Assembly (NCBI GenBank): GCA_903789665.1
Contig: CAIFEX010000004.1
Coordinates: 1-64,000 of the forward strand
Direction: 5' to 3'
DNA length: 64,000 nt
DNA from: an uncultured Clostridium sp.
GTDB lineage: Bacteria; Bacillota; Clostridia; Clostridiales; Clostridiaceae
Under the pieces are notes generated by a model. That model was not told the DNA's origin. It saw only the letters and a program-made list of their open reading frames with translations, and searched no databases. How positions within the stretch are numbered: position 1 is the stretch's first letter; each line of letters starts with the position of its first letter. Of this stretch, positions 18,513 through 40,471 are shown piece by piece. Position numbers and translations under genes: made by a program.

Positions 18513-18533
18513 AACAAACCTCCTAAACTAGTT

Positions 18534-18854: not shown

Positions 18855-18869
18855 GTGTATTCCTCCTCG

Positions 18870-20659: not shown

Positions 20660-20936
20660 TACCCACCATCTCCTGAATAAAATCATTAACTGCTTTAAAA
20701 CTATCTATTAGGTAAACTTTAAAACCTAAAGTTTCAAGCTGTTTTTTTCTTTTAAGCTGCAGAACTCTCATTTTTTTACCTGGTGCTTTAAGTTCTACAA
20801 ATGCAACTTTTCCTTTAGGCATTAAAACAATTCTATCTGGCACACCTGCTAAACCAGGCGATACAAACTTTAGTGCCATACCACCACATTTTTTAACTTC
20901 AATTTTTAATTTATTTTCAATCTTACTTTCTAACAT
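20640..20936 (-). CDS. VRR-NUC domain nuclease
   Basis: A 98-residue standalone VRR-NUC nuclease: 'ESKIENKLKIEVKKCGGMAL', then 'GLAGVPDRIVLMPKGKVAFV' and 'ELKAPGKKMRVLQLKRKKQL'. PD-(D/E)XK residues are visible as E3, D in VPDR and ExK in VELK. Such phage VRR-NUCs act on Holliday junctions or flap DNA during replication/recombination. It lies directly 3' of a repeat-rich gap. Confidence 0.93.
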   Translation of the reverse strand: MLESKIENKLKIEVKKCGGMALKFVSPGLAGVPDRIVLMPKGKVAFVELKAPGKKMRVLQLKRKKQLETLGFKVYLIDSFKAVNDFIQEMVGNGKDKI

Positions 20937-21001
20937 TCCATACCCCTATTTTAGTTGTACACACCTACATATGGCTTATTTACTAGCTTTTAAAACATCC
21001 C

Positions 21002-21200
21002 GGGACAAGTGGACAACTTGGACACTGGTTTCTTATATACATATACGCATATAGGGACATACATATATACTATTATCTCTAATTCATATATCTCTATATA
21101 AAATAGTTGTCCCACTTGTCCTAATAAGCCTTTAAGTCCTTGTTATATACAGCCTTAAAGCTTGGGACATGGTATGGGACAAGTTAATATTTATTGTCCC
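21002..21200. repeat. GGGACA iteron-like array, candidate replication origin
   Basis: GGACA-type motifs occur at 21002-21008, 21011-21016, 21020-21024, 21054-21060, 21164-21170 and 21176-21184 on the plus strand and at 21107-21113, 21114-21121 and 21194-21200 on the minus strand. The first three are phased at 8-9 bp. The array fills the 254-nt gap after the VirE primase-helicase gene, next to AT-rich DNA. Iterons beside a primase/helicase gene suggest an origin. Confidence 0.55.
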
Positions 21201-23593: not shown

Positions 23594-23610
23594 ACTTTTC
23601 ACCACCTTGC

Positions 23611-25563: not shown

Positions 25564-25604
25564 TTAACCATCTCCTAAATAGGTCAGGGAGATTTCTCTC
25601 CCTT

Positions 25605-26147
25605 TTAGTCTAAAAAATCATCTTCAACTTCTACTGGTTCAAAATCATCCTCAGCTTTACTTCTTCCCCCTAGTGGTTCTCCGTCTTTCAACTTTTGTAG
25701 ATTTTGAAGTCCACAGGCTATGCCTTTATTTCCATTTGCATTATAGGCATAAAATACAACACTGGCTCTCCCATAACATCCACTATAAAATTCACTTTGA
25801 TCTAATATAGGTTGTACATTTTTGTCCACAATTCCAGGTCTTATATTACTGTTAGCATTTATAAAATAACTGTCTGCATAGGCTTCATCATCAGGTTTGT
25901 CTATATCTCCATCTCTAAGAGGAATCTTCAGATTAGTTGGTATCTTACCTCCAAGTTTTGATATACCTTCCTTTTTCGCTTCTTCAATAGCGGTTTTAAT
26001 CTTTTTGATTGTCGCCTTATCTGATTTTGGAATAATAAAGCTCACTGAATACTTTGCATCTCCACCATTGATACTCTTTGCTTCCCATACATTTGCATAA
26101 CTAAATCTTCCTACACCGGTTATTACCTTTGTTAAATTGGACATCAT
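25605..26147 (-). CDS. DUF2815 single-stranded-DNA-binding-like protein
   Basis: About 180 residues. 'SNLTKVITGVGRFSYANVWE' and 'SVSFIIPKSDKATIKKIKT' are the family signature of DUF2815, which is placed with phage T7 gp2.5-like OB-fold ssDNA-binding proteins. The C-terminus is acidic (EDDFEPVEVEDDFLD), as in SSB proteins that recruit partners. It sits between the DUF2800 and DNA polymerase genes. The exact start codon of several close ATGs is uncertain. A GGGAGA/TCTCCC hairpin is in the gap downstream. Confidence 0.9.
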   Translation of the reverse strand: MMSNLTKVITGVGRFSYANVWEAKSINGGDAKYSVSFIIPKSDKATIKKIKTAIEEAKKEGISKLGGKIPTNLKIPLRDGDIDKPDDEAYADSYFINANSNIRPGIVDKNVQPILDQSEFYSGCYGRASVVFYAYNANGNKGIACGLQNLQKLKDGEPLGGRSKAEDDFEPVEVEDDFLD

Positions 26148-26163
26148 AATTATCACTTCTCCT

Positions 26164-27288
26164 TTATTTAAAATCTACTTCCGCAGTACTTTTTATTTCT
26201 GGTCTTTTATCACTCTGAGCCACTAAGGTCAATTTGCCTTGAGGTTTGTAAACTAAATTATTAAGCAGCTCCTTAAATTTCTTTTTACCCACAGCTTTTT
26301 CCATGGCTGTAATACCTAATAAGTTTTTAGAATATATATCATCTTCTTCAAAGCCAGCATCTATTAAAGTTCTGGCAACAGCTTGTTCATTGCTGTACTT
26401 TCTGCTGCTTCTTCCCTCTACTAATTTAAAACCATCCCATTTCTTATTTTCATTTACAGCTTTATCAAGTGCATAGGCTTGGATATCATTTGCCCATTTT
26501 TGAAATTCATCTACACTTGATAAGATTTCTGTAATTTCATCATCAGTTAAAAGTGGACCTTTTCTAAAATCATATTGTGCCATTTTCATATTTTCTTCTG
26601 CTCTTGCTCTGCAATTAAACTTAGCTCTGCAAAACCTACAGTGCTCTCCAGCTTTAAACTCTCCTTCGCCTTTTATGGCAAGATCTGCTTTTGGCTTTAC
26701 TACATCTTCTGCCCATTTAATCAGGTCATCTGCGGTAATTTCAAAAGTTGATATGTTATCAAGTCTCGGCTGGCAAATAGTCATTCTTACTTTTTTAATG
26801 TCATAAAGGCTGTCAAATAAATTAAGAGTACCTATGGCATACAGCATCATTTGAGGATTATTAACAGCTGAAACTTCTACACCTTTTCCATATTTCAAAT
26901 CAACAATATCTACAATCTTATCTGAAACAATAACAAGATCTCCTGTACCAAAACCTTTAGGCACGCAATTTGAAAAATCAAGTTTCTGTTCCACAAGTAT
27001 AATTGGATCTTTTGATCTAGCTTTAGCTTCTGCTATAAGCTCACAGCCATAATTAAAATAAATGTCTGTATAATATTCCAGTTCCTTTTCATCAAATTCA
27101 CTTTTAGGCTTTTTGATCTTTATTCCAAGGTATTTCTTTAATTTATATTCCGCTAATGCATGAGCAGCAGTTCCCTCTTTTGCAAAGACACTACTCTTAT
27201 TTTCAAAGTTTTCTTCAAGCCTTGCAGAAGGTGGACACTGTATCCACCTATGAGAGCTTGAAGCCGATAAAAGTGCATGTTCACCCAT
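26164..27288 (-). CDS. DUF2800 RecB/Cas4-like nuclease
   Basis: A 374-residue DUF2800 protein: 'HALLSASSSHRWIQCPPSAR', 'KEGTAAHALAEYKLKKYLG', 'GTGDLVIVSDKIVDIVDLKY' and 'CRFCRAKFNCRARAEENMKM'. The D in GTGD and DxK ('VDLKYGKG') with cysteines at the C-terminus resemble the PD-(D/E)XK Fe-S nucleases of the RecB/Cas4 class. It probably processes DNA ends in phage recombination/replication. It overlaps the Rrp5-like gene by one base. Confidence 0.92.
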   Translation of the reverse strand: MGEHALLSASSSHRWIQCPPSARLEENFENKSSVFAKEGTAAHALAEYKLKKYLGIKIKKPKSEFDEKELEYYTDIYFNYGCELIAEAKARSKDPIILVEQKLDFSNCVPKGFGTGDLVIVSDKIVDIVDLKYGKGVEVSAVNNPQMMLYAIGTLNLFDSLYDIKKVRMTICQPRLDNISTFEITADDLIKWAEDVVKPKADLAIKGEGEFKAGEHCRFCRAKFNCRARAEENMKMAQYDFRKGPLLTDDEITEILSSVDEFQKWANDIQAYALDKAVNENKKWDGFKLVEGRSSRKYSNEQAVARTLIDAGFEEDDIYSKNLLGITAMEKAVGKKKFKELLNNLVYKPQGKLTLVAQSDKRPEIKSTAEVDFK

Positions 27289-27602
27289 TAAATCAACTCC
27301 GCTTCTTTTAATAACTCAGAGTATTTATCCTTTGGTATATCAGTTAACTTTTTACCCCCAAACTTTTTAATAAGTTCTTTTACCTCTTTCTGCTTGCCAT
27401 TTTGTGCAAGTTGTGCAAGTACTGTTCTCACCTCTTCTAAAGTTGTAGTTTTAACTTCTTCCTTTTCTTTTGATGCTTGTACTTCTTTAGGTTCTTCATT
27501 TATTTGAACCCCTGTTTTCATTTGTGGTAATGCTTCAGCTAAAGCTAGTAAAGCATTCATAATATCTGGAGAATCAACTCTCACCCTAATATTAATATCC
27601 AT
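27288..27602 (-). CDS. Rrp5-like conserved phage protein
   Basis: A 104-residue protein annotated in phages as 'rRNA biogenesis protein rrp5-like'; it is unrelated to rRNA work as far as I know. The C-terminal part 'TTLEEVRTVLAQLAQNGKQK' and 'KELIKKFGGKKLTDIPKDKY' is the conserved segment. The N-terminal part is a short beta region followed by a charged linker. First gene after the small XRE protein, in the replication operon. Confidence 0.8.
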   Translation of the reverse strand: MDINIRVRVDSPDIMNALLALAEALPQMKTGVQINEEPKEVQASKEKEEVKTTTLEEVRTVLAQLAQNGKQKEVKELIKKFGGKKLTDIPKDKYSELLKEAELI

Positions 27603-27815
27603 CTATAACACCCCTTTCTTTTTAAATAAAGTATCTACTGACTCTTCTGGAAATACTCTTAAAAGTCCACTTGCAACCTTGCGGCCTACTCCTCTTTTTC
27701 CACTAAGAACCCTACTTATAGTTCCTTTTGATACATTAGCCTTGGCAGCTAACTTATTTTGAGATAAACCATTTATCTCCATTAGTTCTTTTAATTTTGA
27801 AGAATTTAAATCCAT
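27603..27815 (-). CDS. Small XRE-family DNA-binding protein (Cro-like)
   Basis: About 70 residues, one HTH: 'ELMEINGLSQNKLAAKANVS' and 'KGTISRVLSGKRGVGRKVAS'. It could be the Cro-like switch protein opening the early replication operon. The likely start is ATG 27815 (AAAGGGTGATGGTT before it); a GTG at 27824 is also in frame. Two TTAGC...GCTAA dyads lie upstream and overlap the end of the ImmA gene. Confidence 0.82.
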   Translation of the reverse strand: MDLNSSKLKELMEINGLSQNKLAAKANVSKGTISRVLSGKRGVGRKVASGLLRVFPEESVDTLFKKKGVL

Positions 27816-27848
27816 AACCATCACCCTTTTGTGTTATCTTCTATGCTT

Positions 27849-27922
27849 GTTAGCTAATTTGCTAACATAGAGTTAAAAAAAAGCATGTACCTAACAGCAC
27901 ATTAGCAATACGCTAATTGTGC
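27849..27922. promoter_or_regulatory. Pair of TTAGC/GCTAA operators
   Basis: GTTAGC-TAATTT-GCTAAC (27849-27866) is a perfect dyad and GCACATTAGCAATACGCTAATTGTGC (27897-27922) is an imperfect one. Both share the TTAGC/GCTAA half-sites and lie within 74 bp of each other, upstream of the small XRE gene; the second overlaps the 3' end of the ImmA gene. Confidence 0.7.
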
Positions 27923-28687
27923 TGTTTCTTCCCTTACAATCTTTAATTGCCTTAGCCTAATTGAAGCTGCCTGTATTGATACATTAAATATTCCGGCAAG
28001 TTCTCTTGACATGTCATTTGCAAACTCATAGGTATCAAAATCTCTATCTAAAGTTATATAACTGTCATCAATACCGACTTCTTTAAATATATTTTGTGCC
28101 GCCATTATAAATGTCCTTTTAGGCATTATCAAACATGATGATGTATAATTTGCCTGCCATTCCATCCAATCATTGTCTGTTTTAAATGTTCTTTTCTCTG
28201 AATAATCTTCAAAACTTCTCTTCAGACACTTTATTGATTTAGCTTCTTCATTATTCAGCATATCAAAAATGTTAAGCTGATCTTCATGTGTTTCAAACAT
28301 CTCTCTATGCAGCATCCAGTGACCACATTCATGTCCATTGGTAAACCTGCATCTGCCTTCTTGTTCTTCTGTAAGTAAGTCATTATTTATAACTACAGTA
28401 CCTTTTTTCACATATATATCCTTATACTTATCTTTTTCTAAATCGTATACAGTAAGGATTCCATTGTTAAAAGTTGTTAATCCAAGGACACTTCCATCTG
28501 GTGTTATATCTGCATAATCAACTTCAAGATGTAAATAATTCTCTAAAAATTCTTCTATTGGTGTGGGCACAGGTTCTTCTAATATTTTTGAATCAAAATC
28601 CCCTAAGTATGCTTCTGCAATTTCTTCAATATCACCTTTAGAAAGAACTGGCAGACCGTTACTTTTTCTCTTAACCTCAATGTGCAC
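27902..28687 (-). CDS. ImmA/IrrE-family zinc metallopeptidase
   Basis: A 261-residue protein with the zinc motif 'NGHECGHWMLH' (HExxH as HECGH). It also has the domain-flanking 'FEDYSEKRTFKTDNDWMEWQ' (second ligand region) and a C-terminal helix-turn-helix-like segment 'AGIFNVSIQAASIRLRQLKI'. ImmA proteins cleave or inactivate the partner XRE repressor to induce the mobile element. Start is GTG and overlaps the repressor stop (TAGTG), so the pair is co-translated. In ICEBs1-like elements the pair controls excision and induction. Confidence 0.94.
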   Translation of the reverse strand: MHIEVKRKSNGLPVLSKGDIEEIAEAYLGDFDSKILEEPVPTPIEEFLENYLHLEVDYADITPDGSVLGLTTFNNGILTVYDLEKDKYKDIYVKKGTVVINNDLLTEEQEGRCRFTNGHECGHWMLHREMFETHEDQLNIFDMLNNEEAKSIKCLKRSFEDYSEKRTFKTDNDWMEWQANYTSSCLIMPKRTFIMAAQNIFKEVGIDDSYITLDRDFDTYEFANDMSRELAGIFNVSIQAASIRLRQLKIVREETAQLAYC

Positions 28688-29061
28688 TAGGCGTTGCCTC
28701 CTTTTTCAGTTAGCTTTTTAACAAACTCATCCCAATCCTCCTCTGTTGCAACTTCTCTAGCTTTCCTTAATGCCACCCTGACTTTTTTAGACGACATAAT
28801 ATATTCCGGGAGATCAGGGGCTATAGTGTTCTTACCTTCTCCTGCTAAATCAAACATTGTATGTTTTTCATCCTCAGTTAATTTTAAAATTTCAGCTATT
28901 TGTACAAGCCTATCCATATCCGGCGGATATCTTCTGCCTTTTTCAATGTCACTGAGATATGCGGGAGCAATTCCTAGTTCAGCGGCCATTCCTCTCAATG
29001 TTATTCCGAGTTTTTTTCTTTTATCTGCTATAAATTTACCAAAACTAAATATGTCATCCAT
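28687..29061 (-). CDS. XRE-family repressor, prophage master regulator
   Basis: A 124-residue regulator with an N-terminal HTH_XRE domain: 'FIADKRKKLGITLRGMAAEL', then 'GIAPAYLSDIEKGRRYPPDM'. The C-terminal part ('MSSKKVRVALRKAREVATEE') is the likely dimer/partner region. It has a consensus promoter (29111-29139) with two GGAAAC operators and thus probably represses itself. It forms a pair with the ImmA/IrrE protease. It is on the same strand as the early genes, unlike the usual divergent cI-cro pair. Confidence 0.93.
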   Translation of the reverse strand: MDDIFSFGKFIADKRKKLGITLRGMAAELGIAPAYLSDIEKGRRYPPDMDRLVQIAEILKLTEDEKHTMFDLAGEGKNTIAPDLPEYIMSSKKVRVALRKAREVATEEDWDEFVKKLTEKGGNA

Positions 29062-29157: not shown

Positions 29158-29970
29158 TTATTTGTTATTTTTATTCAAATTACATCTTTTAATCATTTTC
29201 TTGACTTCCTTAGGCGTATAAGCAGGTTCTCTACTATGAATTACTAAATGGCAATTTGGACAAACTGGAATCAAATCATTTATTGCATCTATTTCATATT
29301 CCCTTCCAATTTCATGTAGAGGTTTTAAATGGTGTACATTAATTAATCCCTCCACTTCTTTTCCATAAAAGCTTTCAAAATCAAATCCACAAATCTGACA
29401 AATAATTCTGCCATTATTAAGTTTTTTATAATATTCAATACATTCCTGTTTTGCTTTTGGATTTCTTTCATAAGCATTTATTGTAATTTTATATTTAGCA
29501 CCTTCTTTAAGTTTCTGTGACTGTTTTTCAGTAATTTCTTCTGGTATAGTTATTACTTTTCTTATATCTTTATTATTAAACAAAATTTTGTTTTCCTTTA
29601 TAAGTTCATCTATAGCTATTTTCAATTCTGGACGTAAAATCCATATAAAATGTCCAGTGCTTTTTTCTATAGCCCCTAAAAACATTACATGCCAATAATT
29701 AAATTTTGTACTATCCTCTCTTTGTCTTGGTGGTTCAATTTTTAAGTAATGTGCAATCCTTTTTCCTAAAGCTCCAACTGCAAAATTATATGAATTAGGT
29801 TTTCTTCCTTCATCATTCGCAATTTCCGTTGCTGTTGCCATATAATTAGGCTTTTTATAAATTTTTAAGATTAAATCTTTATTAAAATCTTTTATTATAT
29901 TTTTATTTAAAAAAAGTTCTTTCCATTGTTCTTTAGTTATATTTATTCTATCATTCCATTCAATTTTCAT
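29158..29970 (-). CDS. McrA-like HNH endonuclease, putative restriction enzyme
   Basis: A 270-residue protein. The C-terminal 90 residues are an McrA-type ββα-metal domain: Cys191 and Cys194 (CQIC), 'NVHHLKPLHEIG' (H213-H214), Asn231 in 'NDLIPVCPNCH', Cys237, Cys240 and His245. The N-terminal 190 residues are a DNA-binding-like domain ('YMATATEIANDEGRKPNSYN', 'FAVGALGKRIAHYLKIEPPR') as in type IV or modification-dependent restriction enzymes. It has its own promoter (30010-30038) and lies at the end of the defence island. Specificity for modified DNA is inference; it might equally be part of the island system. Confidence 0.85.
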   Translation of the reverse strand: MKIEWNDRINITKEQWKELFLNKNIIKDFNKDLILKIYKKPNYMATATEIANDEGRKPNSYNFAVGALGKRIAHYLKIEPPRQREDSTKFNYWHVMFLGAIEKSTGHFIWILRPELKIAIDELIKENKILFNNKDIRKVITIPEEITEKQSQKLKEGAKYKITINAYERNPKAKQECIEYYKKLNNGRIICQICGFDFESFYGKEVEGLINVHHLKPLHEIGREYEIDAINDLIPVCPNCHLVIHSREPAYTPKEVKKMIKRCNLNKNNK

Positions 29971-30009
29971 ATACTCATCCCTAGTTCATAGGATATACTA
30001 AATCTATTA

Positions 30010-30038
30010 CTATAACATCTATTTTACTTTTTGTAAAT
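30010..30038 (-). promoter_or_regulatory. Promoter of the McrA-like gene
   Basis: Minus strand TTTACA - 17 bases - TATAGT in the 93-nt gap before the HNH gene. Confidence 0.6.
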
Positions 30039-30063
30039 TTGAAAATATTTTATATTTTATAGC

Positions 30064-30717
30064 TCAAATATTCTCAATCCAATTTAATATGTAATCACGA
30101 CTTTTATTCAGAATATACATTCTTTTGTAATTCTCTTTATTTTGTAATATATTTTCTTTTATAAGGACTTTAATAACAGTATATACTACTGTCTTAGGTG
30201 ATTTCTTATAATTAGTTTCGCTTATGATTTTATCATTCATCAATGACGATATTGTAGATGTTTTTATATATTCTTTATTATACCTACAAAATTGATCGAC
30301 TATAGTTTTAACTATTTCATTAAATATAGATATAGGAATTACGTTAGGATAAGTGCTACTATTATCTGGTCTAGTAGTTACAATTCTAATACTATCGTTT
30401 TGTTTTGACCATGTCGTTCTATCAACAACATCTTTAATATCTCTTTCATTTTCTTCTTCACATTCTTCTCTTTCTTCATCGCTATCATCAACAACTATTT
30501 CATTATATAAGTTTTTTAATTTTAAAACTTCAGATTTATTATTTTCAATTTTTTCAACAAATTCAATAGTTTTTTTTATCTCATTTAATTGTCCTTTTTT
30601 GCTAATATCAGGTATGTATTCTTGCCATATTTTATTTTCTAAATTGTTTAAACCATCTTCTAATAAATCATACGATGTACTCACATCTTCAATTTCTTTT
30701 TTTAAATCAATATTCAT
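30064..30717 (-). CDS. Unknown coiled-coil/winged-helix-like protein in the defence island
   Basis: A 217-residue protein I do not recognise. Residues 1-70 look like a coiled coil ('YDLLEDGLNNLENKIWQEYI', 'EIKKTIEFVEKIENNKSEV'), residues 73-92 are acidic (DDSDEEREECEEENERD), and the C-terminal 100 residues look like a winged helix-turn-helix ('NEIVKTIVDQFCRYNKEYIK', 'NYKKSPKTVVYTVIKVLIKE', 'NILQNKENYKRMYIL'). It begins after a 169-nt gap following the res gene, with GGGGGATGAATATAA before ATG, and precedes the McrA-like nuclease. It could be a regulator or specificity partner; function unknown. Confidence 0.6.
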   Translation of the reverse strand: MNIDLKKEIEDVSTSYDLLEDGLNNLENKIWQEYIPDISKKGQLNEIKKTIEFVEKIENNKSEVLKLKNLYNEIVVDDSDEEREECEEENERDIKDVVDRTTWSKQNDSIRIVTTRPDNSSTYPNVIPISIFNEIVKTIVDQFCRYNKEYIKTSTISSLMNDKIISETNYKKSPKTVVYTVIKVLIKENILQNKENYKRMYILNKSRDYILNWIENI

Positions 30718-30886
30718 TTATATTCATCCCCCTATAAATTTAAAATTCTAAGATTATATTTTTTAATATATTCAAAATGATATTGAAAATGTGCAGTATA
30801 ATTCTTTAATATATTATCTGTAATCCCCATAAAAAATCTTTTATTATTATATTTATTTTTCTACTTATTAAGTCCTCTAATCTACT

Positions 30887-33601
30887 CTATCTTCCAACTT
30901 TAGTACCATTTTGAATCATATTATTAAAACTTGAATTTAATCGAACTTCTTCATGGGAAATTAGTACATATTTCCAGGGCTTGCCTCCGTATTTATTATT
31001 AAAATTAGTAGCTGCTGCACAATACTCTTTAGCTGCCTTTGCTTTTTTAATTACTATATCATCATTTAACATTCTACTGTCCTTTGTTTCAATCATATAA
31101 ATACAATTAGATGTTTCCACTATAAAATCTGGTTGATATCTTTTTGAACTATCCCTATCATAATAAATTGTAAATTGTCTTAAACTAGGGCGCATCCATT
31201 TTAATACTGCATTCTCTCTTTCAAGAATAATAGCGAAAGTCTTTTCAGTATTATTTTCAAACTTATATAAAAAATGACAACTTTTCTTGAAGCCTTTAAA
31301 TATTTTAGATTTTATATCCTGAGGTGGAATATTTTCTCTATAATCATATATCTCGTCTGATACATATTTACCTCCAAAGCTAACTTCAATCCTACTAAAT
31401 GGTCTCATATCGGTAGCTGTGTAAGTAGTTTCTTCTTTATAAAAATGTTCATTCATTTGTGCATAAATGTTGTCCGCTATACTTTTGCTCCGCTGTGCAA
31501 GAACTTTTTGTACTTCATCTTCATTATTTAAATAGCTATAAAAATGTTTTTTCAGCTGATCAATTAAAGAGTACATCAAATCCGCACATTCATCATACTC
31601 AATATTTTCATGCACTAGCAAAAGCTTTACTATTACATTCTCTGGAGTATCCGTTTCCTTTATATTCGCAAAAGACATATCTATATAATAACTTTGACCA
31701 TTTTCTTTTAGTTCAGTTGCTAGTAATGCATCATCAGATGGATACCAATTCATGTTTCTAGTATCTAATTCAAATTCATGAAATCCTTGTTTTATTTCTG
31801 AAACCGGCTGTATAACTGCCTGAGGAATAGGAATAATCTTATTAGTTAATAAGTTTATATTTTGCTCAACTGCTTTTTCAACACACGCTGCAACATCCTC
31901 TTTACTTAGTTCTAATGAATGAAATGCATTTTGTGTTAATGATATAATTGACGTATTTAATAATTTTTTGACCTTGGGCTGTTTTATATCTTCAAAATTA
32001 TGTAATCTTTTATTCATTTCTAATACAGACTTATTTGTAATCTCTGAAACATATTTAGCAATATCTTCTTTAACTTCTTGTGGAGCCCGGACTGTCTCTG
32101 GCACAAACATTGCCAGCTGTTCCTTATAAGACTTACTATTTGTTAATTCATCATATACTGTTGGCAATTCTATTGTTTCCTTTTGATCTTCATTACTATT
32201 TTCTTCAGGATCAATACAATATACCCTTCTTACTAATGAATTTGGATCTTCAGCTAATTTCACAATGGCTTCATATTTGTCATGGCTCACAATAGACAGC
32301 CTGTCTACTTTTTCATTTCCCGTTCTTTCACCATACGGAAGTCTTAATCCCCTGCCAATTGTTTGTTCGGTTAATGTTTCAGAAGCAGATGCCCTAAGTG
32401 GAATAATTGTATAGAGGTTATTTACATCCCATCCTTCCTTAAGCATATTAACATGTATTACAATTTCTATAGTATTATCTGGTTTCTCCAGTGTAAGTAA
32501 TTTTGAAATATTTTCATCTTTTTCTGAACCACGCTGGTTAGAATTTATCTCCAAAACCTTATCTTTATAATATCCTTTGTAAAATTCATCAGAAGTTAGA
32601 TATTTCTTTATTCTTTTTGAATGATCTGTATCTTTAGCAACAACTAATACAAAAGGTTTAATTATTGGTTTGCCATGTGTACGGGCATATGTATCTAGTG
32701 CTTCTTTAGTATCAATATGAAGTTTTATACCATCCTTTAATTTTTCTTTATCTAAGTCATCAGGATTAGGAAATTCTTCCGGATGAAAATCTTTTCTTGT
32801 TACAACAACAGGTACCTTAATATATTTTTCATCATTTAATGCATGTGCTAATGAATATTCATATACTACATTTTTAAACTTGATAGCTTTAGATCCCTTT
32901 TGTATTTGAGGTGTAGCCGTTACCTCTATACCTAATATTGGTTCTAATTCATTGATTACATTAAAACTCTTATCAGCATGATAATGATGGCTTTCATCCA
33001 TTAATATACATAAATCCGGAAGATTCTTAAGATATTCAAAATAAGATTCACCCAAAACTTCATTTAATCTTTTAATTCTTGCAGGTTTTCCATTCTTAAT
33101 CTTAGTGTCAGAATTTAATTTTGAAATATTAAATACATTAATTGTAATTTCATTATTTCCAACTGATATTTGTCTAAATTCTTCATAGTTATCACCATCA
33201 ATAATTCTAGGTGGCGTAACAAAAGCATCTAAACCTTTAAATACATATTTAGGGTTGCTATTATTCCCAAAATCAGCCTTTAACTTATTATATATAGTTA
33301 AATTAGGAGCCATAACGAAAAAATTTTTAATATGTTTTTCATAATATAAATAAGCTAAAAAAGTTCCCATTAATCGAGTTTTTCCAATACCTGTAGCAAG
33401 TGAAAAACACACTGAAGGAAAAGATCTTTCAAAACTTGTTAATGTTGGACAAATATCTTTAACTTTTTGTAATTCTACATCTAAATCAATATTCTTTTGC
33501 AACTTTAAAACATCACATATCTTTTCAAATATCTCCAAACTTTCCTTTTGAGGTTGACGTAAGCATAAAGTATTATTAATATATCTTGAAATTTTATTCA
33601 T
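30887..33601 (-). CDS. Type III-like restriction (Res) helicase-nuclease
   Basis: A 904-residue SF2 translocase with nuclease. Walker A is 'FSLATGIGKTRLMGTFLAYL' (residues 69-75), motif II 'MDESHHYHADK' (202-205), motif III 'GIEVTATPQIQKGSK', motif VI 'LTEQTIGRGLRLPYGERTG'. At the C-terminus 'YQPDFIVETSNCIYMIETKD' supplies PD...ExK, as in type III Res subunits. Start ATG 33601 overlaps the mod stop (ATGAATAA), showing coupled translation. It is expected to cut unmodified foreign DNA together with Mod. Compared with EcoP1I/EcoP15I Res (about 970 residues) it is slightly short. Confidence 0.93.
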   Translation of the reverse strand: MNKISRYINNTLCLRQPQKESLEIFEKICDVLKLQKNIDLDVELQKVKDICPTLTSFERSFPSVCFSLATGIGKTRLMGTFLAYLYYEKHIKNFFVMAPNLTIYNKLKADFGNNSNPKYVFKGLDAFVTPPRIIDGDNYEEFRQISVGNNEITINVFNISKLNSDTKIKNGKPARIKRLNEVLGESYFEYLKNLPDLCILMDESHHYHADKSFNVINELEPILGIEVTATPQIQKGSKAIKFKNVVYEYSLAHALNDEKYIKVPVVVTRKDFHPEEFPNPDDLDKEKLKDGIKLHIDTKEALDTYARTHGKPIIKPFVLVVAKDTDHSKRIKKYLTSDEFYKGYYKDKVLEINSNQRGSEKDENISKLLTLEKPDNTIEIVIHVNMLKEGWDVNNLYTIIPLRASASETLTEQTIGRGLRLPYGERTGNEKVDRLSIVSHDKYEAIVKLAEDPNSLVRRVYCIDPEENSNEDQKETIELPTVYDELTNSKSYKEQLAMFVPETVRAPQEVKEDIAKYVSEITNKSVLEMNKRLHNFEDIKQPKVKKLLNTSIISLTQNAFHSLELSKEDVAACVEKAVEQNINLLTNKIIPIPQAVIQPVSEIKQGFHEFELDTRNMNWYPSDDALLATELKENGQSYYIDMSFANIKETDTPENVIVKLLLVHENIEYDECADLMYSLIDQLKKHFYSYLNNEDEVQKVLAQRSKSIADNIYAQMNEHFYKEETTYTATDMRPFSRIEVSFGGKYVSDEIYDYRENIPPQDIKSKIFKGFKKSCHFLYKFENNTEKTFAIILERENAVLKWMRPSLRQFTIYYDRDSSKRYQPDFIVETSNCIYMIETKDSRMLNDDIVIKKAKAAKEYCAAATNFNNKYGGKPWKYVLISHEEVRLNSSFNNMIQNGTKVGR

Positions 33602-35189
33602 CACAATCACTCTCACATTCAATGTCTGAAGTATCTATTATTGACATATTATAATTATTTACACCAAAATCGCATTTATCAAGAACTGATTGAGGTATTT
33701 TCTTAATTATTATATTTTCATATCTATCATTAAGTCCAACATCAAAAGCCGGACAACAAATTAGCAATCTTTCTTTTTCTTGCATTTCACTAGCAAGCAT
33801 ATCAAGATATTTTGCACTTACAAACTGTGTTGTTGTAAAAATATAACTACTTTCATGACTTTTTCCCTGTTTCCAAAAAGTTTTTTCATCTGGATCATAT
33901 TTATATCCATTAAGTTTTGCAACTGCTGCTGCCAACATTTCTGCATTATAATGTTCTTTGTCAATTACCCAATTTCCATGTTTATCTTTTTTCAATAGAC
34001 TTGGAGCAAGCTCATAAAATTTAAAACCGCCACCGCCTTGCCATTTAACTGTCTTTGATATTCCACCTTGATCGGTTCCATCAACAACTTTTTGCAACCT
34101 TGGAATACAATATTTATAACACTGCTTACCCATCTCAATTCCTATATAATTTCTTCCCATTTTGTGTGCAACTGCTGCTGTAGTACCCGTCCCTAAAAAC
34201 GAATCAAGAACTAAATCTCCTGGATTAGTGGCAATGTGAAGAATTCGATTAATCAATCTTTCTGGTTTTGGTGTCTCAAATGCATTAGTTTTTCCAAAAA
34301 GAGCATAAATTTCTTTCTTAGCCTCATCCGTATGCCCTACCTCTTCACTTGGCCACCATGTCCAAGGAACAAAACCATCTACTTCTGAAAGATATCTTAT
34401 TACATTAGGTTGTGCATCTCCATTCTTTCCAAAATAAATGCGTCCTTCAGAACAAAGCTTTTCAAATGTAGCCTTACTAAGTCCCCAACATCTTCCTTTA
34501 GGTGGTGTATGAATTTTACCACTTGGCGTAGTTATTTCATAAAACTGCTCTCTTGTTGCATGACCTTCTTGAGCTGTCATTGGAACTGGCCTCCAAGGAC
34601 CTTTAGGATCATTATTAGGATTACGATAAACTTTTTTCTGTTTTTCATCTGGTGGTGTTAAATTTCTTATTTCCTTAAATACCTTAGTATCCTTTGCATA
34701 TACAATTATATATTCATGCACATCACCAATTGCCTCTCTGTTTTCTCGCGAATATCGTTTTTGCCAAACATTACAAGCTACAAATTTATCTCTTCCAAAC
34801 AATTCATCCATTAAAACTCTTAAATATGGCATTTCTGAATCATCAATTGAAACCCAGAAAGACCCTGTTTTTTCATCCAACAGATTCCAAAGCAATTCAA
34901 ATCTAGGCTTTATCATGTTTAACCACAATGAATGTTCTATCCCATCCTCATAGTGTTCAAAAGCATTACCTGTATTATATGGTGGATCAATATACACACA
35001 TTTTACTTTTCCAGTATAATCTTGCTCCAATGCCTTTAAAGCTAATAAGTTATCCCCGTGAATAAGCATATTTTCAGTATTTTGATCTCCATATGATTTT
35101 TCTTTGTCATATAATAAAATTCTAGGTTCAAGTTTAGGTTCTTCACCCTTCCCTATCCATGTTAATTCTAATTTTTGTTTTTCAGCCAT
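33594..35189 (-). CDS. Type III-like DNA methyltransferase (Mod), beta class
   Basis: A 531-residue N6-adenine methyltransferase. The catalytic DPPY lies at residues 68-71 ('KCVYIDPPYNTGNAF'), then a target-recognition region (about 140-310), then the SAM motif 'LDSFLGTGTTAAVAHKMGRN' (331-340), that is beta-class order as in EcoP15I Mod. Around 'IEHSLWLNMIKPRFELL' and 'GSFWVSIDDSEMPYLRVLMD' lie the standard motifs. Start ATG 35189 is preceded by GGAGG; a longer start 15 bases upstream lacks a better site. Coupled to SNF2 and Res genes. It should set the DNA specificity of the system. Confidence 0.94.
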   Translation of the reverse strand: MAEKQKLELTWIGKGEEPKLEPRILLYDKEKSYGDQNTENMLIHGDNLLALKALEQDYTGKVKCVYIDPPYNTGNAFEHYEDGIEHSLWLNMIKPRFELLWNLLDEKTGSFWVSIDDSEMPYLRVLMDELFGRDKFVACNVWQKRYSRENREAIGDVHEYIIVYAKDTKVFKEIRNLTPPDEKQKKVYRNPNNDPKGPWRPVPMTAQEGHATREQFYEITTPSGKIHTPPKGRCWGLSKATFEKLCSEGRIYFGKNGDAQPNVIRYLSEVDGFVPWTWWPSEEVGHTDEAKKEIYALFGKTNAFETPKPERLINRILHIATNPGDLVLDSFLGTGTTAAVAHKMGRNYIGIEMGKQCYKYCIPRLQKVVDGTDQGGISKTVKWQGGGGFKFYELAPSLLKKDKHGNWVIDKEHYNAEMLAAAVAKLNGYKYDPDEKTFWKQGKSHESSYIFTTTQFVSAKYLDMLASEMQEKERLLICCPAFDVGLNDRYENIIIKKIPQSVLDKCDFGVNNYNMSIIDTSDIECESDCDE

Positions 35190-35204
35190 AAACTCATCCT
35201 CCAT

Positions 35205-38048
35205 CTACACTATTTCAAATCTTATAGTAAATATATTAGTTACTGTATTTTTGCCTTTTATACTTTGCCTCATTTCTTCTTGCAATTTCTCATTTTCATT
35301 TTCAATTTTATCTTCTTCTTCATATAATTCCCTACGCTTCTTATCTCTTAACTTTTTAAGCTTTAAAATTTCATCCTTTTTATCAAGCATTTCTTCTAAA
35401 GTACAGTCAACTATAGAGAGTTCTTTATTTTTTTCCTTAATAACCTTATCTATATTCTTTATATCTTCCTGGAGTCCATCTTTTAAATCTTCACTCCACT
35501 CATCCAGTTTTTCGCATTCCTTTAGGAAATACTCTTTATTCTCCATTTCTATTTGCTTTAAAGTATTATCAGCATTAGCTTTAGACATTTCTTTTATATC
35601 ATTTGGGACACTACTACCTTCAATGTGCTGCCTTTTTACTGCGCTAAGCTCCATTATCTTATTAACAACACCGCTATCTAAAACTGTTCCATCATCACAT
35701 ATTGCACTTATAATTAAATGTTCCTGCTTATCAAAACTGTCATTTATCAATTTATCTATGCATATCCATCCTGTTTTGCAAGGAATTACATCAAGGTAAC
35801 TTATTTTTCTACCTGAATTTTTATAATTAAATTCAATAAAACTAACTGGGAACCGTTTTCCCTTTATTTGCTTTATAAGATCTTCACATAAAGGATGTTC
35901 CCTTCTCAAAAAATGTTCATGATTTTTTTCACTTTCTTTCCATCTAATAGAATATGTGCCTCTATAATTATCATTATATATATATTCAAACCTGGTATTA
36001 TCTATAGGCTTTAGCTTATCTCCACATGAACTTATCATAAAATTGTATAGCCATTTTTCATATTGATTTATACCTTTTATTGTATTATCATTACATGTTT
36101 TTAACAGTGCACTTACTTCTTCATCAAAATTTTCAAGCAATGACTGCTGCGCATGTTTCATAGTATCACTAATTTTATCCTTAAACTGTTCTTGTAAATT
36201 ATCAAAAGCAATTTTAATTTCATCTTTCGTTCTACAATTTTGGTAAATTTCAGCTATTTTATTTTCAAAATCAACTCCTGATTCTATAGAACCTAATACT
36301 TCATCTGATGAACCAAAAAGACCTTCAAATAATTTGAATTTTTCATTTAATAATTCATAAACTCTTTTATCCGCTTCATTTTTTTCATTTACAAAATTTA
36401 TAACCACTACATCGTTTTTTTGTCCATATCTATGGCATCTTCCGATTCTTTGCTCTATTCTTTGAGGGTTCCATGGCATATCATAATTTACAAGTAAAGA
36501 ACAGAACTGAAGATTTATTCCTTCCGATGCCGCTTCAGTCCCTATTAGTATATTTGCTCTTTCCTTAAATTCTTCAACTATAGATGCCTTCATATCAGCT
36601 TGTTTTGATCCAGAGACTATATCTTCACCTTTATGTCTTTTAAGCCATTCTTTATATATTCTCTTAGAATTGGAATCATTATTCGAACCATTTAAAAATA
36701 CAATTTTGTTTTCATAGCCATTTAATGAAAGTAACTTATATAAATACTCTTGAGTACGTCTAGATTCCGTAAATATAACTACCCTTCTGTTTCCACCAAG
36801 CTCTTCTGTTCTAGCAAACCCCTTCTTTAGAGCTATTAATAAATTTTCGCCTTTAGCATTAGTATTTATACTTTTGGCAAGATTAGCATACTCTTTAAGC
36901 TTTGCCAATTCTTTATTTATATTAATACGTTCCCTGAGCATGTCTATTTTTGTTTCATCTTCATTTACACTATCTTCCTCAAATAGCTCATCTATTGAAT
37001 CATAATCATCTAAATTCAATTTGCTATCTATGCCATTTAACATATTTTCAAGTCTAACAACTAAAGCATCTAATGTACCTGATATTGCAAACGAAGATGA
37101 TGCTAATAATTTTCTTAAAATCATAGTCATTAATTTTCTTTGACTGTTTGGTAATGCATATAAAGTAGGAGACTGTAAATACTCTGAAACTTCATTATAT
37201 AATTTTTCTTCTTGAGCAGATGGTTCATATGTAACTAATATTGCTTCTCTTTTAGTATAGGGCACATATTCCACCACTTGTTTCCTAAGAGTACGCTTAC
37301 AAAATTGCTGCAATCTTGCCCTTAAAAATACATTTCTTACTTCTTCATTCTCAACATTTAGATATTTTTGTCTAAATGTTTTAGGATCACTAAACACTCT
37401 TTCATCAATTATGCTAACTAATCCATATAATTCCATGAGATTATTTTGTAAAGGTGTAGCTGTAAGCAAAAGTTTTTTTCTACCTCGTAAAGCACTTTTT
37501 AATTTATTTCCTGTTACATTACTATTTTTATATACATTTCTAAGTCTATGAGCTTCATCAATTACAACTAAATCCCAATTAATATTTGATACTTCCTTTT
37601 GTTTACGTGCTGCAAAATTATAAGAACAAATAACTACCTCATCCTTTTGATTAAATGGGTTGAAAATTTGCTTTTTCTTTTGGCTATTAAAATTTTTACT
37701 TTCCAATATTATTGATTTTATATAAAACTTTTCGCTTAACTCTGACAGCCACTGATTTCTCAAAGAAGCTGGTACAATTAAAAGTATTTTTCTCTTATGT
37801 TCCGCCCAATACTGAGCCATAATTATACCTGCCTCTATGGTCTTACCCAAACCAACTTCATCTGCTAATATAACACCACTAGATAAAGGTGATTTAAACG
37901 CAAACAATGCTGCATCTACTTGATGTGGATTTAAATCAACTTTTGCACCAGCTAAAGATGGAACCAAACTATTCAACCTATTATTAGGGCGCTTTAATGT
38001 TATTTGTTCAGCAAAATATCGTGCTTGATACAATGTATAATTACTCAT
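35205..38048 (-). CDS. SNF2/RapA-like ATPase of the defence operon
   Basis: A 947-residue Swi2/Snf2 ATPase. N-terminal RecA: Walker A 'GVILADEVGLGKTIEAGIIM' (GLGKT at 66-70), DEAH 'DLVVIDEAHRLRNVYKN' (164-167), 'LLLTATPLQNNLMELYGLVS'. C-terminal RecA: 'VVIFTESRRTQEYLYKLLSL' and 'NYDMPWNPQRIEQRIGRCHR'. A unique region follows, then a highly charged C-terminal coiled coil (about 800-930; 'NIDKVIKEKNKELSIVDCTL', 'KLKKLRDKKRRELYEEEDKI'). It starts at ATG 38048 within the stop of the HTH gene (ATGAGTAA), which is better supported than the ATG at 38072. A DNA translocase in type III restriction context is unusual; its role may be DNA recognition, remodelling of the Mod-Res complex or displacement of proteins. 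Confidence 0.93.
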   Translation of the reverse strand: MSNYTLYQARYFAEQITLKRPNNRLNSLVPSLAGAKVDLNPHQVDAALFAFKSPLSSGVILADEVGLGKTIEAGIIMAQYWAEHKRKILLIVPASLRNQWLSELSEKFYIKSIILESKNFNSQKKKQIFNPFNQKDEVVICSYNFAARKQKEVSNINWDLVVIDEAHRLRNVYKNSNVTGNKLKSALRGRKKLLLTATPLQNNLMELYGLVSIIDERVFSDPKTFRQKYLNVENEEVRNVFLRARLQQFCKRTLRKQVVEYVPYTKREAILVTYEPSAQEEKLYNEVSEYLQSPTLYALPNSQRKLMTMILRKLLASSSFAISGTLDALVVRLENMLNGIDSKLNLDDYDSIDELFEEDSVNEDETKIDMLRERININKELAKLKEYANLAKSINTNAKGENLLIALKKGFARTEELGGNRRVVIFTESRRTQEYLYKLLSLNGYENKIVFLNGSNNDSNSKRIYKEWLKRHKGEDIVSGSKQADMKASIVEEFKERANILIGTEAASEGINLQFCSLLVNYDMPWNPQRIEQRIGRCHRYGQKNDVVVINFVNEKNEADKRVYELLNEKFKLFEGLFGSSDEVLGSIESGVDFENKIAEIYQNCRTKDEIKIAFDNLQEQFKDKISDTMKHAQQSLLENFDEEVSALLKTCNDNTIKGINQYEKWLYNFMISSCGDKLKPIDNTRFEYIYNDNYRGTYSIRWKESEKNHEHFLRREHPLCEDLIKQIKGKRFPVSFIEFNYKNSGRKISYLDVIPCKTGWICIDKLINDSFDKQEHLIISAICDDGTVLDSGVVNKIMELSAVKRQHIEGSSVPNDIKEMSKANADNTLKQIEMENKEYFLKECEKLDEWSEDLKDGLQEDIKNIDKVIKEKNKELSIVDCTLEEMLDKKDEILKLKKLRDKKRRELYEEEDKIENENEKLQEEMRQSIKGKNTVTNIFTIRFEIV

Positions 38049-38250
38049 CTTTAGTTTCTCCCATATTTTCACATATGCTGCTATATATTTTTTTTCTTCT
38101 ATCTAATGGTTTTTCTGCATTATTAGGTATCAACCATAAGTTAGCCTTTTTTACTGCTCCTTGAATTCTACCTTCTACACAGAGAATTTGAACTCTTCGT
38201 CTCGTGATTTTCCATTTTTCTGCTGCTTCTTGAGCCGTTATATAATCCAT
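38041..38250 (-). CDS. Helix-turn-helix protein, first gene of the defence operon
   Basis: A 69-residue protein with a MerR/excisionase-type winged HTH: 'MDYITAQEAAEKWKITRRRV', 'QILCVEGRIQGAVKKANLWL' then 'IPNNAEKPLDRRKK'. Such small proteins lead restriction or defence operons and may regulate them, or act as excisionase (recombination directionality factor) at a prophage end. Position at the prophage right edge is compatible with both. It starts at ATG after GGTGGAG, and has a consensus promoter 36 bp upstream of the start codon. Confidence 0.85.
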   Translation of the reverse strand: MDYITAQEAAEKWKITRRRVQILCVEGRIQGAVKKANLWLIPNNAEKPLDRRKKIYSSICENMGETKDE

Positions 38251-38285
38251 TTTTCTCCACCAACTTGTCCTCTTTTAATACCTAC

Positions 38286-38314
38286 ATTATATTCTATATA
38301 TCGAACAATATCAA
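38286..38314 (-). promoter_or_regulatory. Promoter of the HTH-SNF2-Mod-Res operon
   Basis: Minus strand TTGATA - 17 bases - TATAAT, 36 bp upstream of the HTH start codon. It is the only good promoter seen between the prophage edge and the res gene. Confidence 0.82.
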
Positions 38315-38376: not shown

Positions 38377-38472
38377 AAATTATCAATATTCTATTTTCTA
38401 CTGTTTCCTACCCCTGTATCACCAAGCATATACAACTTTTACCATTTACTAGCCCCAGCTATACCAATGTCT

Positions 38473-39867
38473 CTAACTGTCTTTCCTTTTAAGCTTGACT
38501 ACCGTCTCCACGTGGGCCGTCTGCGGGAACATGTCCACTGGCTGAACCTTTTCAGGTCTATAGCCCAGATTGCTCAATATCCCAAGATCTCTGGCCAGCG
38601 TGGCAGGATCACAGGATACATAGACTATAGTCCTCGGGGACATACTGGCAGCGAAACGGAGAAGAGCTGCATCACAGCCTTTTCTCGGAGGATCCACTAC
38701 CATCACATCGGCCTTTATGCCCTCTTCTGCAAGTTTTGGTATTATTTCTTCAGATTTGCCTGATATGAATTTCACATTGTGGATGCCGTTTTCCCTGGCA
38801 TTTACTCCGGCATTTTCAACTGCAGACTCCACTATCTCAATTCCATAGACCTTTTTTGCCTTCTGCGAGAGGAAAAGAGAAATGGTGCCGGTGCCGCAGT
38901 AGGCATCAAATACAATTTCATTCCCCGTAAGATGGGCATATTCCAGTACTTTTCGGTAGAGGATCTTAGTCTGCAGTGGATTTACCTGAAAGAAGGACAT
39001 GGGTGATATGTTAAATCTGAATTTGCCTATATAGTCGCTTATACTGTCTTTTCCCCACAGTGTTACAGATTTATCTCCCAGTATAACGTTGGTCCTTCTG
39101 TCATTTATATTTTGAATTATACTCACTATATGGGGAATATTCTGGATCAGGGCTTCTATAAATTCAGCCTTGTGAGGAATTTCGGACACGGAAGTCACAA
39201 TTACAACCATTATCTCTCCTGTAACAAAGGCTTTTCTTATCATTATATGCCTTATGATTCCCCTGCCGGTCTTTTCGTCGTAAACGGGGACATTGTATTT
39301 TTCAATCCATTTTCTTATAGATTTCACAACTCTATCCGCAGACTCATCCTGTATGAGACAGCTGTCCATATCTATTATGTCATGGCTCCTGTTTGCATAG
39401 AATCCAATCTTTAAACCAGACTCGTCCCTGCCAACTGGAAGCTGTACCTTATTCCTGTACCTGTATGGATTTTTCATCCCCAGAGTATCGTACAGTTTTA
39501 ACGAATTCTCCCCGCTGGATTCGGTTACCTCAAATTTTCCTATTCTCTCGAGGCACTCTCTCACCCTGTTTTTTTTGAAATTCAGCTGTGCACTGTAGGA
39601 CATATGCTGCAGCTGGCATCCACCGCATCTTTTATATACGGCACAGGGTGGATTGACTCTTTCAGGTGAGGGCTCAACCACATCGAGCAGTTTTCCAAAG
39701 GCAAAATTCTTGTTTACTTTTACTGCTTTTACAATTACCTTTTCACCCTGCAGAGCTCCGGGTATAAAAAACGTAAACCCGTCTATCCTTCCGACCCCTT
39801 CACCGCGGTATCCAATTCCACTTATTCTTAATATGTATTTCAAATTTTTCATTATTTTTTCCTTCAT
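38473..39867 (-). CDS. rlmD: 23S rRNA (uracil-5-)-methyltransferase RlmD/RumA
   Basis: About 464 residues. It has a TRAM domain start ('[19 protein letters not shown]'), the Fe-S cluster cysteines in '[14 protein letters not shown]', SAM motif I '[20 protein letters not shown]', and the catalytic Cys in '[15 protein letters not shown]'. It ends with '[14 protein letters not shown]'. I start at ATG 39867 (AGGTGAAGAC before it), not the TTG 15 bases upstream. The substrate may be U1939 of 23S rRNA, as for RlmD; a RlmCD-like double specificity is possible. The prophage lies immediately 3', and the 'HVETVV' codons include the segment CACGTGGAGACGGTAGTC (38497-38514, minus strand). This is where rumA-targeting elements integrate in streptococci, so this may be an att site. 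Confidence 0.94.
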
Positions 39868-39941
39868 GTCTTCACCTGCCAAAAAAATTAATTATCTACA
39901 TATAGTATACATTATTTTTAAACCGAACTCTTCCCGCATAT

Positions 39942-39966
39942 AAAAAAATTGCACCTTTAAAGGTGC
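39942..39966 (-). terminator. Intrinsic terminator, minus strand
   Basis: Perfect 16-bp palindrome GCACCTTTAAAGGTGC (39951-39966) followed on the minus strand by AATTTTTTT. It lies between pyk and rlmD and is the first good minus-strand terminator after pyk. Confidence 0.75.
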
Positions 39967-40093
39967 AAAAAATATAGAATCAGTTGCCTTGATTTCTATT
40001 ATATAATTTTATCCACATATTTAATAATTATACAATAAATTTATAATTATTTCCAATGTTATAAATTAAAAAACAAAATAAGCCAAAAAAGGA

Positions 40094-40146
40094 TTGACAA
40101 CCTGGCAAAGTATGTTATAATAATAATTAATCAATAATAATTATTA
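40094..40146 (+). promoter_or_regulatory. Promoter of the 62-codon gene with AT dyads
   Basis: TTGACA (40094-40099), 16-base spacer, TATAAT (40116-40121). Directly at and after the -10 lie TTATAATAATAATTAA (40115-40130) and the perfect palindrome TAATAATTATTA (40135-40146), which resemble, but do not fully match, Fur/PerR-type boxes. Confidence 0.72.
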
Positions 40147-40206
40147 AATAAGACAATATAACAATTACTTTAAAATATTAAAATTTATAAATTTGGAGGT
40201 ATTATA

Positions 40207-40395
40207 ATGAAGGACAAAAAGAACTTAAAATCAAAGGAAAATGCAAACGAGGGAGAACTTCACAAGGACGCAGTGGACAAAAATGCAATATATACAGGTA
40301 AAGATGACGATATCGTATTGAATTGCGACGGAGAACCATGCAATTTTTCATACCGCAAAGATCTGTCAGATGATTCAAAGGACTCTCAGAAATAA
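40207..40395 (+). CDS. Small hydrophilic protein of unknown function
   Basis: The only plus-strand gene in the window; 62 residues (MKDKKNLKSKENANEGELHK, 'DAVDKNAIYTGKDDDIVLNC', 'DGEPCNFSYRKDLSDDSKDS'). It is charged, has no hydrophobic segment, and holds a C-x5-C pair (DGEPC). The ATG follows GGAGG at seven bases; a consensus promoter and a strong terminator frame it, so it is a real transcription unit. I do not recognise a family. The AT dyads in its promoter suggest a regulated, possibly metal or oxidative-stress linked gene (inference). Confidence 0.78.
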   Translation: MKDKKNLKSKENANEGELHKDAVDKNAIYTGKDDDIVLNCDGEPCNFSYRKDLSDDSKDSQK

Positions 40396-40442
40396 TTGAA
40401 TTCATCAGCTCATATTTGATCTTTGCAGGATTTTTATTTTAC

Positions 40443-40468
40443 AGCAGCTGTCAGCTGCTCTTTTTTTT
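40443..40468 (+). terminator. Intrinsic terminator of the 62-codon gene
   Basis: AGCAGCTG-T-CAGCTGCT followed by C and eight Ts on the plus strand. On the minus strand no T-tract follows, so it would not stop pyk transcription. Confidence 0.88.
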
Positions 40469-40471
40469 GAT

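Follow-up and report, generated by a model that had tools for sequence, protein, structure and literature searches.

In the EcoP15I family of type III restriction enzymes, Mod methylates one strand of an asymmetric site, protecting the host, and the Mod-Res complex cuts unmethylated incoming DNA. EcoP15I works without any SNF2 protein. In the DNA analysed here, a stretch of 64,000 nucleotides from an uncultured Clostridium sp. (hereafter, the window), a gene for a large SNF2-type ATPase lies directly ahead of a mod-res pair. The question is whether this ATPase belongs to the restriction system or is only its neighbour. From the evidence described below, we consider it highly probable that the locus includes SNF2 as a dedicated component.

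Organization of the HTH-SNF2-Mod-Res operon

The genes for HTH, SNF2, Mod, and Res form a single operon on the minus strand (38250-30887), in agreement with the initial annotation. The proposed translational coupling of the four genes is borne out by their arrangement: HTH and SNF2 overlap at ATGAGTAA, Mod and Res overlap at ATGAATAA, and the SNF2 stop codon abuts Mod. The single promoter placed ahead of the operon corresponds to a promoter-like site, TTGATA-17-TATAAT (38286-38314, minus strand), which precedes the HTH gene and agrees with the sigma-70 consensus at 11 of 12 bases. It is a consensus match, to be read against 62 promoter-like sites in total, no excess over the 58.6 (sd 6.5) in shuffled sequences; one other among the 62 reaches the same score.

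The first gene (38041-38250, minus strand) encodes a 69-aa putative regulator resembling HTH_17 and HTH_59 of Pfam (21 and 22 bits, both below the cut-offs of 27 bits), and its position is that of the annotated HTH genes at relatives' loci. A single-seed search (1 of 111 loci) was too weak and was replaced by a profile search, which detected an HTH gene of this kind at 29 of 111 loci; WYL or XRE-like genes are found at some others. The HTH leader is thus a real feature of this operon but an exchangeable one among its relatives.

The SNF2 gene (35205-38048, minus strand) encodes a RapA-type, DrmD-like ATPase of 947 aa when read from the ATG inside ATGAGTAA (Pfam SNF2-rel_dom, 146 bits; PADLOC DrmD family PDLC02619, 683 bits). 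It is followed by the gene for Mod, an N6/N4-type methyltransferase of 536 aa (33594-35204, minus strand; Pfam N6_N4_Mtase, 158 bits; PADLOC MTase_III, 576 bits). The GGAGG noted between SNF2 and Mod was found before the ATG at 35189, and this start (531 aa) is more likely than that at 35204 (536 aa). Res (30887-33601, minus strand), 904 aa from the ATG inside ATGAATAA, contains an SF2 motor and a PD-(D/E)XK nuclease (Pfam ResIII, 71 bits; PADLOC REase_III, 548 bits). On the 3' side of Res, 169 bases carry no listed gene; then come the gene for a 217-aa protein (30064-30717, minus strand), initially described as a winged HTH, with no match in Pfam, PADLOC, NCBIfam, or PHROG, and the gene for a 270-aa HNH endonuclease (29158-29970, minus strand; PF01844, 28.9 bits).

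Properties of the SNF2, Mod, and Res proteins

The motifs GLGKT, DEAH, and QRIGRxHR are present in all 38 SNF2 proteins that accompany Res of the window's kind (group A1, see below), the window counted. An alignment of 42 SNF2 proteins shows no variation in the Walker stretch, in D, E, or H of DEAH, or in most of QRIGRCHR. The best family match is DrmD, for which the protein scores 683 bits with NF038318 against a cut-off of 950 bits; it also fails NF038317 (259 bits, cut-off 610) and the RapA equivalog model (184 bits, cut-off 576). The nearest solved proteins are RapA (185 bits by profile search), the match being confined to the ATPase core. The charged coiled-coil tail pointed out initially is present but common to the whole family, and it may resemble the C-terminal domain of RapA and BrxHII as described in the accessible part of PMC12839542.

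For Mod, the solved relatives are 6k0w and EcoP15I Mod (4zcf). The DPPY motif is present in the window and kept in 33 of 38 relatives; the text pattern F.GTG, found in 1 of 38, was too strict. Res as a single sequence gave no match against the PDB, and its family profile matches EcoP15I Res (4zcf_C) with 233 bits. Across 43 aligned Res proteins, no variation is seen in the helicase motifs or in the nuclease PD, and at least 90% retain the nuclease E and K; nuclease conservation was taken from this alignment, a crude text pattern (15 of 38) being too strict. By sequence, Mod has the features of an N6-adenine methyltransferase of the type III kind, and Res, adjoining it, those of an SF2 ATPase with a PD-(D/E)XK nuclease. 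Pfam, PADLOC, solved relatives, and motifs agree with the assignment of the two as a type III pair.

Linkage of SNF2 with Mod and Res

Relatives were drawn from 84,980 species genomes (of at least 559 confirmed relatives, of any closeness, the best 80 were kept), viral contigs, plasmids, and related genomes. A core locus was defined by an SNF2 score of at least 1000 bits and counted only with at least 7 kb of downstream sequence; loci were merged at 90% identity. The SNF2, Mod, and Res profiles were iterated on these same loci and are therefore tuned to this pool. The count skipped 11 short or repeated loci (L001-L008, L017, L018, and L103) and six loci without an SNF2 match (L163, L164, L166, and L168-L170). 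Mod and Res were found downstream on the same strand at 74 of 81 deduplicated core loci (78 of 85 before merging), the genome share coming from the best 80 of at least 559: 41 of 46 genome contigs, 23 of 25 viral contigs, 9 of 9 plasmids and relatives, and the window itself (1 of 1). The pair lies upstream of SNF2 at L063 and L080 and nearby on the opposite strand at L136. At L086, Mod is 6.9 kb downstream, close to the end of the stretch; at L096, a 66-aa Mod-like ORF was found, and no intact Mod-Res pair in the stretch; at L050 and L140, neither Mod nor Res was detected in the stretch examined.

In the same count, Mod and Res accompany 0 of 8 SNF2 genes scoring below 300 bits, 2 of 10 at 300-800 bits, and 3 of 7 at 800-1000 bits, the group that contains the DISARM loci. 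The possibility raised initially, that SNF2 homologues lie mostly away from Mod and Res, thus met with the opposite outcome. The association extends well beyond this genome. The genome collection, of which the best 80 of at least 559 loci were kept, supplied 65 core loci; these come from at least 16 phyla or named groups, and 45 of the 65 show Mod and Res even with contig ends scored as misses. Within 5,426 E. coli genomes, searched for near matches only, one plasmid version of SNF2 was found in two.

Since the 80 genome loci had been chosen for the highest SNF2 scores, an evenly drawn set of 199 genomes of the same phylum was added. Four others among them have SNF2 above 300 bits (G289, G155, G175, and G208), all adjoining Mod and Res; in G208, which may be the same record as L093, SNF2 is split, and Mod and Res are kept. 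Weaker SNF2 matches in two relatives, G006 and G063, are accompanied by neither Mod nor Res.

The linkage was also examined in the reverse direction. All 23 plasmid records with a homologue covering at least 80% of the window Res carry SNF2; these include 15 Salmonella records of the same score, 2 of Aeromonas, and 2 of Roseomonas, and so represent about seven independent cases. Within the 199 genomes, Res of the window's type was detected at E 1e-60 in four: the window's own, G175, G289 (SNF2 intact), and G279. No member of this Res branch without any SNF2 sequence was seen in the plasmid set or the 199 genomes. In G279 (L206, G279:C84, 6201-8369), one 722-aa ORF fuses an N-terminal piece of SNF2 to a C-terminal piece of Res, without a Mod match; it looks like what a natural deletion left of an SNF2-Mod-Res locus.

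Co-divergence of SNF2 with Res and the gene slot between them

Res proteins at core loci fall into three groups: A1, the window's kind (42 loci); A2, EcoP15I-like and mostly occurring without this SNF2 (13 loci); and B, a longer kind paired with a Mod of about 1040 aa (29 loci). On plasmids, class B Res has SNF2 alongside in 17 of 25 records; the other eight are remote (31-37% identity) and absent from the SNF2 match list (two inspected). Along a quick tree of SNF2, built without L086, without rows shorter than 840 aa, and without some of the viral rows, the Res group changes 8 times vs 25-35 times in 100 shuffles (n=72 labelled rows). Within A1 (n=38), pairwise distances correlate most strongly for SNF2-Res (r 0.84), followed by Mod-Res (0.76) and SNF2-Mod (0.60); for each of the three pairs, 0 of 2000 permutations gave a value as high. 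These results fit joint travel, possibly with contact between SNF2 and Res, which they do not prove.

At 37 of 74 loci, the slot between SNF2 and Res contains an ORF of 190 aa or more on the same strand, 31 loci having one before Mod and 12 one after it. The other 37, the window included, have no such ORF and keep SNF2. Of 70 slot ORFs of this size, 62 were scanned, the eight left out being a transposase, two Mod-like ORFs, and five of L086. Pfam families among the 62 are AAA_21 (14), AIPR (6), Schlafen AlbA_2 (5), DUF4276 (4), RhuM (3), and Abi_2, SIR2_2, Fic, and GmrSD_N (2 each); PADLOC matches include mad3, AriA, and HEC-01. The slot genes appear to be interchangeable, and many belong, by name, to abortive-infection or defence families.

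A second SNF2 family and type III loci without SNF2

Nine plasmid type III loci, chosen by eye and not at random, were compared. In six (L210-L215), a second SNF2 family of about 1080 aa is followed by DUF4391, Mod, and Res, the last two being EcoP15I-like; the hosts are E. faecium, Lactococcus, Vibrio, Paraburkholderia, Acinetobacter, and a methanogen (an archaeon). L216 and L217 have no SNF2. In the ninth, on a Priestia plasmid (L209, 4612-13747), a UvrD/GajB-like helicase takes the place that SNF2 has in the other type III loci. DUF4391 was confirmed by Pfam in L210 and L211, the two loci scanned, and L210 matches the PADLOC family C3a139; the PADLOC label 'HKD+Snf2' for this second family was not borne out by Pfam or motif search. 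The two SNF2 families share 27-29% identity, limited to portions of the ATPase. Across the 199 genomes, the second family was found at 16 places, including one fragment, and Res lies within 7 kb downstream on the same strand at 15 of the 16; for the 16th (G253), no Res match is listed and the contig continues for only 2.8 kb downstream. That two SNF2 families have the same habit argues for a function.

Res of the E. faecium type was found at 29 places in the 199 genomes, 15 with the second SNF2 family and one with the split core SNF2 of G208. Six of the remaining 13 were inspected: L219, L222, and L223 are without SNF2 in the stretch examined, and L218, L220, and L221 are cut by contig ends. 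Natural Mod-Res pairs with no SNF2 nearby (L216, L219, L222, and L223) thus exist, and the idea that every ordinary type III locus has SNF2 was rejected. The contrary statement of the initial annotation, that classical type III systems have no SNF2, is correct for EcoP15I but not for natural loci at large, in many of which the second SNF2 family precedes Mod-Res.

Comparison with DISARM and other known systems

The operon shares with EcoP15I (PDB 4zcf) an N6/N4 Mod with DPPY, a Res with SF2 and PD-(D/E)XK parts, and the order Mod-Res. It differs in the extra SNF2 and HTH leader, and half of its relatives have slot genes. The SNF2 (C3a139)-DUF4391 loci likewise have a large SNF2, Mod, and Res arranged as in the window, and in some cases an HTH leader, but with the other SNF2 family, a DUF4391 gene, and another Res branch; the 25 best PADLOC families for the window SNF2 do not include C3a139, and Pfam detected no DUF4391 in the window operon. 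RapA (HepA), the best solved match, has the SNF2 core in common with the window protein, which misses the RapA cut-off and lies in a mobile defence context. In the accessible parts of PMC12839542 and PMC8565338, BREX type 3 (BrxHII) and DUF499/Hma systems also combine an SNF2 helicase with a DNA methyltransferase, whereas the nuclease of the window is a type III Res; Pfam found no PglZ, BrxC, or DUF499 among the 19 window proteins scanned.

DISARM with DrmD (NF038318/PDLC02619) has a homologous SNF2. DrmA and DrmB profiles, grown from one DISARM locus (L143) and so liable to miss remote kinds, gave no match in the window or any core locus stretch, and matched five loci (L089, L090, L143, L144, and L145). 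Each of the five carries Mod, a Res-like gene (a weak match in L090 and L143), and, immediately ahead of DrmD, a gene of the C5-methylase family; this last gene, usual in the DISARM loci, was matched near only one core locus, L028, about 3.7 kb upstream. The SNF2 proteins of three DISARM loci score 1351-1541 bits with PDLC02619. In the quick tree, whose branches are long, one branch (SH-aLRT 89) separates 86 core rows from a six-row DrmD clade (100); L136, core by score, falls on the DrmD side. DrmD and the window SNF2 look like relatives, both in the company of type III restriction. The view that the operon is not DISARM class 1 agrees with the lack of DrmA and DrmB matches in the window and core stretches and with an SNF2 score under the DrmD cut-offs. 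A DISARM relic was disfavoured on the same profile result and on the score of 683 vs 950 bits.

PADLOC 2.0.0 and NCBIfam name the parts, SNF2 as DrmD-like, Mod as MTase_III, and Res as REase_III, and no listed model covers the whole operon; this is the outcome of the PADLOC check proposed initially. The literature search, to which most subscription papers did not belong, gave no description of an SNF2-Mod-Res operon, so that its unpublished status is not established. A Cronobacter integrative element bearing a type III pair and an SNF2 gene is listed uncommented in the accessible part of PMC12757443. The available portions of other papers report a methylase-SNF2 fusion, mhgA (PMC8102008), SWI2/SNF2 genes in MORC-linked restriction operons (PMC2292703), and, for BREX and DUF499 systems, SNF2 helicases alongside N6-methylases (PMC12839542), the latter two without SNF2-Mod-Res in those portions; the role of DrmD is called a matter for future studies in that of PMC9142583. 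The initial suggestion of an undescribed SNF2-assisted type III system thus stands in part: a type III system with a conserved SNF2 partner is seen, with none described in the literature searched; the inclusion of HNH and the general rule of SNF2-free type III systems are not supported, the 217-aa protein is at most an optional neighbour, and the HTH leader is exchangeable.

Possible role of SNF2 in restriction

The genomic case is firm, and the mechanism that we infer from it is as follows. By analogy with the EcoP15I family, Mod would methylate one strand of an asymmetric site and protect host DNA, and Mod-Res would cleave unmethylated incoming DNA. SNF2 would most likely be an ATP-driven double-strand translocase: on foreign DNA it would join or trail Mod-Res, remove bound proteins, and power movement, and cutting would then not depend on passive sliding between two head-to-head sites. 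Expression would be set by the HTH protein. This proposal starts from the gene order, the intact motifs, the two-way linkage, and the co-divergence of SNF2 and Res, all of which are observed; physical partnership, translocation, and an effect of translocation on cutting are what we infer. Since many bacterial groups keep the same combination, the extra motor is probably a working part. The chances that this motor-assisted type III system is right as a whole appear about even, and the specific motor role of SNF2 is put forward tentatively, at slightly less than that. Several observations count against the motor reading: joint transfer without contact would also yield co-location and co-divergence; EcoP15I works without SNF2, and some natural Mod-Res loci have none nearby; and L050, L096, and L140 have no intact pair in the stretch examined, to which L086, L136, and the split SNF2 of G208 may be added. 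A more far-reaching version, in which SNF2 is an obligatory third subunit, two SNF2 families were recruited, DrmD arose within or gave rise to an SNF2-Mod-Res module, and the slot is a socket for effectors fired on restriction failure, is doubtful.

Other roles for SNF2 were considered. It could act as a sensor or licensing factor for abortive infection, detecting restriction failure or a stalled Mod-Res and releasing slot effectors, and as a RapA-like remodeller at effector-less loci such as the window. The slot ORFs at 37 of 74 loci, with AAA_21, AIPR, AlbA_2, Abi_2, SIR2_2, and Fic families, fit this idea, but the 37 loci with no slot gene, the window included, keep SNF2 all the same, and the slot may be merely a safe landing place; we regard it as unlikely. 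Somewhat less probable again is that SNF2 restrains Mod-Res by stripping Res from host DNA or transcribed regions, in the manner of RapA on RNA polymerase, and so averts self-cutting in establishment or replication. RapA being the nearest solved protein (185 bits) and an HTH gene standing ahead of SNF2, as expected of a controlled establishment module, speak for restraint; the RapA match is however limited to the ATPase core, and naturally occurring Mod-Res pairs without SNF2 indicate that restraint is not generally needed.

SNF2 might also be an independent defence gene, brought beside Mod-Res merely by the clustering of defence genes. Such hitch-hiking agrees with the prophage-edge cargo region, where a related prophage (G010) has different genes, and with SNF2 genes lacking the pair (L050 and L140), but it is already disfavoured by the two-way linkage, the fixed order, the overlaps, and the matching of Res class on the SNF2 tree, and we hold it to be improbable. 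The least credible reading, to which we give very little weight, is a DISARM variant or a decayed DISARM that lost DrmA and DrmB. The best match of SNF2 to DrmD, the Mod and Res-like genes of the five DrmA/DrmB loci, and the DISARM-like C5-methylase-family gene upstream of core locus L028 suggest it; the core SNF2 rows nevertheless branch apart from the DrmD clade in the quick tree, with moderate support, no core locus stretch matches the DrmA and DrmB profiles, and SNF2 stays below the DrmD cut-offs.

If motor-assisted type III restriction is correct, many natural type III loci would use a second motor that textbook enzymes lack, with a bearing on how the need for two head-to-head sites and protein roadblocks are handled. 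DrmD of DISARM would then be tied to type III restriction, and a rule for finding new anti-phage effectors would be to look in the slot between SNF2 and Res.

Prophage setting and flanking genes

The operon had been placed at a prophage edge, and phage-like genes indeed lie on one side (10941-29061: HTH_3, M78-peptidase, DUF2800, Enc34 ssDNA-binding protein, PolA, VapE, and terminase), with rlmD (38473-39882) and pyruvate kinase on the other, within 38473-42229; the exact boundary is a candidate only. The pair of HTH_3 and M78-peptidase genes we take to be ImmR/ImmA-like. The HTH-M78 pair recurs near rlmD in G010, a genome of the same genus, with 81% DNA identity; the genes between pair and rlmD are different there, with Mod split over two ORFs, a Res-like gene, and no SNF2 match. 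The operon thus sits in an exchangeable cargo region at the prophage edge. A 111-bp att-like repeat in the rlmD 3' region (window 38401-38511) recurs about 7 kb from rlmD in G009 (L190, 11044-11154), and rlmD may be a recurrent integration site. No second copy was found in the window's own assembly, whose contig begins at window base 1, and the prophage boundary therefore remains unproven.

The McrA-like HNH endonuclease, initially counted in the defence island, was rejected as an operon component and is a neighbour only: no full-length homologue was found at the other loci examined, where the sole match is a 41-aa ORF in L129 (28 bits), and the stretch around a 91% relative in G298 gave no SNF2, Mod, or Res match. 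The 217-aa protein, likewise placed in the island, had no homologue among the other SNF2 loci in the first neighbourhood comparison. A 64% relative was later found directly 3' of Res in a type III locus of the second SNF2 family in G042 (L231, 11071-11727), and another, in G311, has no SNF2, Mod, or Res match within 19 kb. Given the G042 case, the gene is at most an optional neighbour and is not flatly excluded. The prophage also carries a ParB-N6/N4 methyltransferase protein (14220-15509) and a small SNF2 helicase of its own (18870-20216), both of which match phage protein families.
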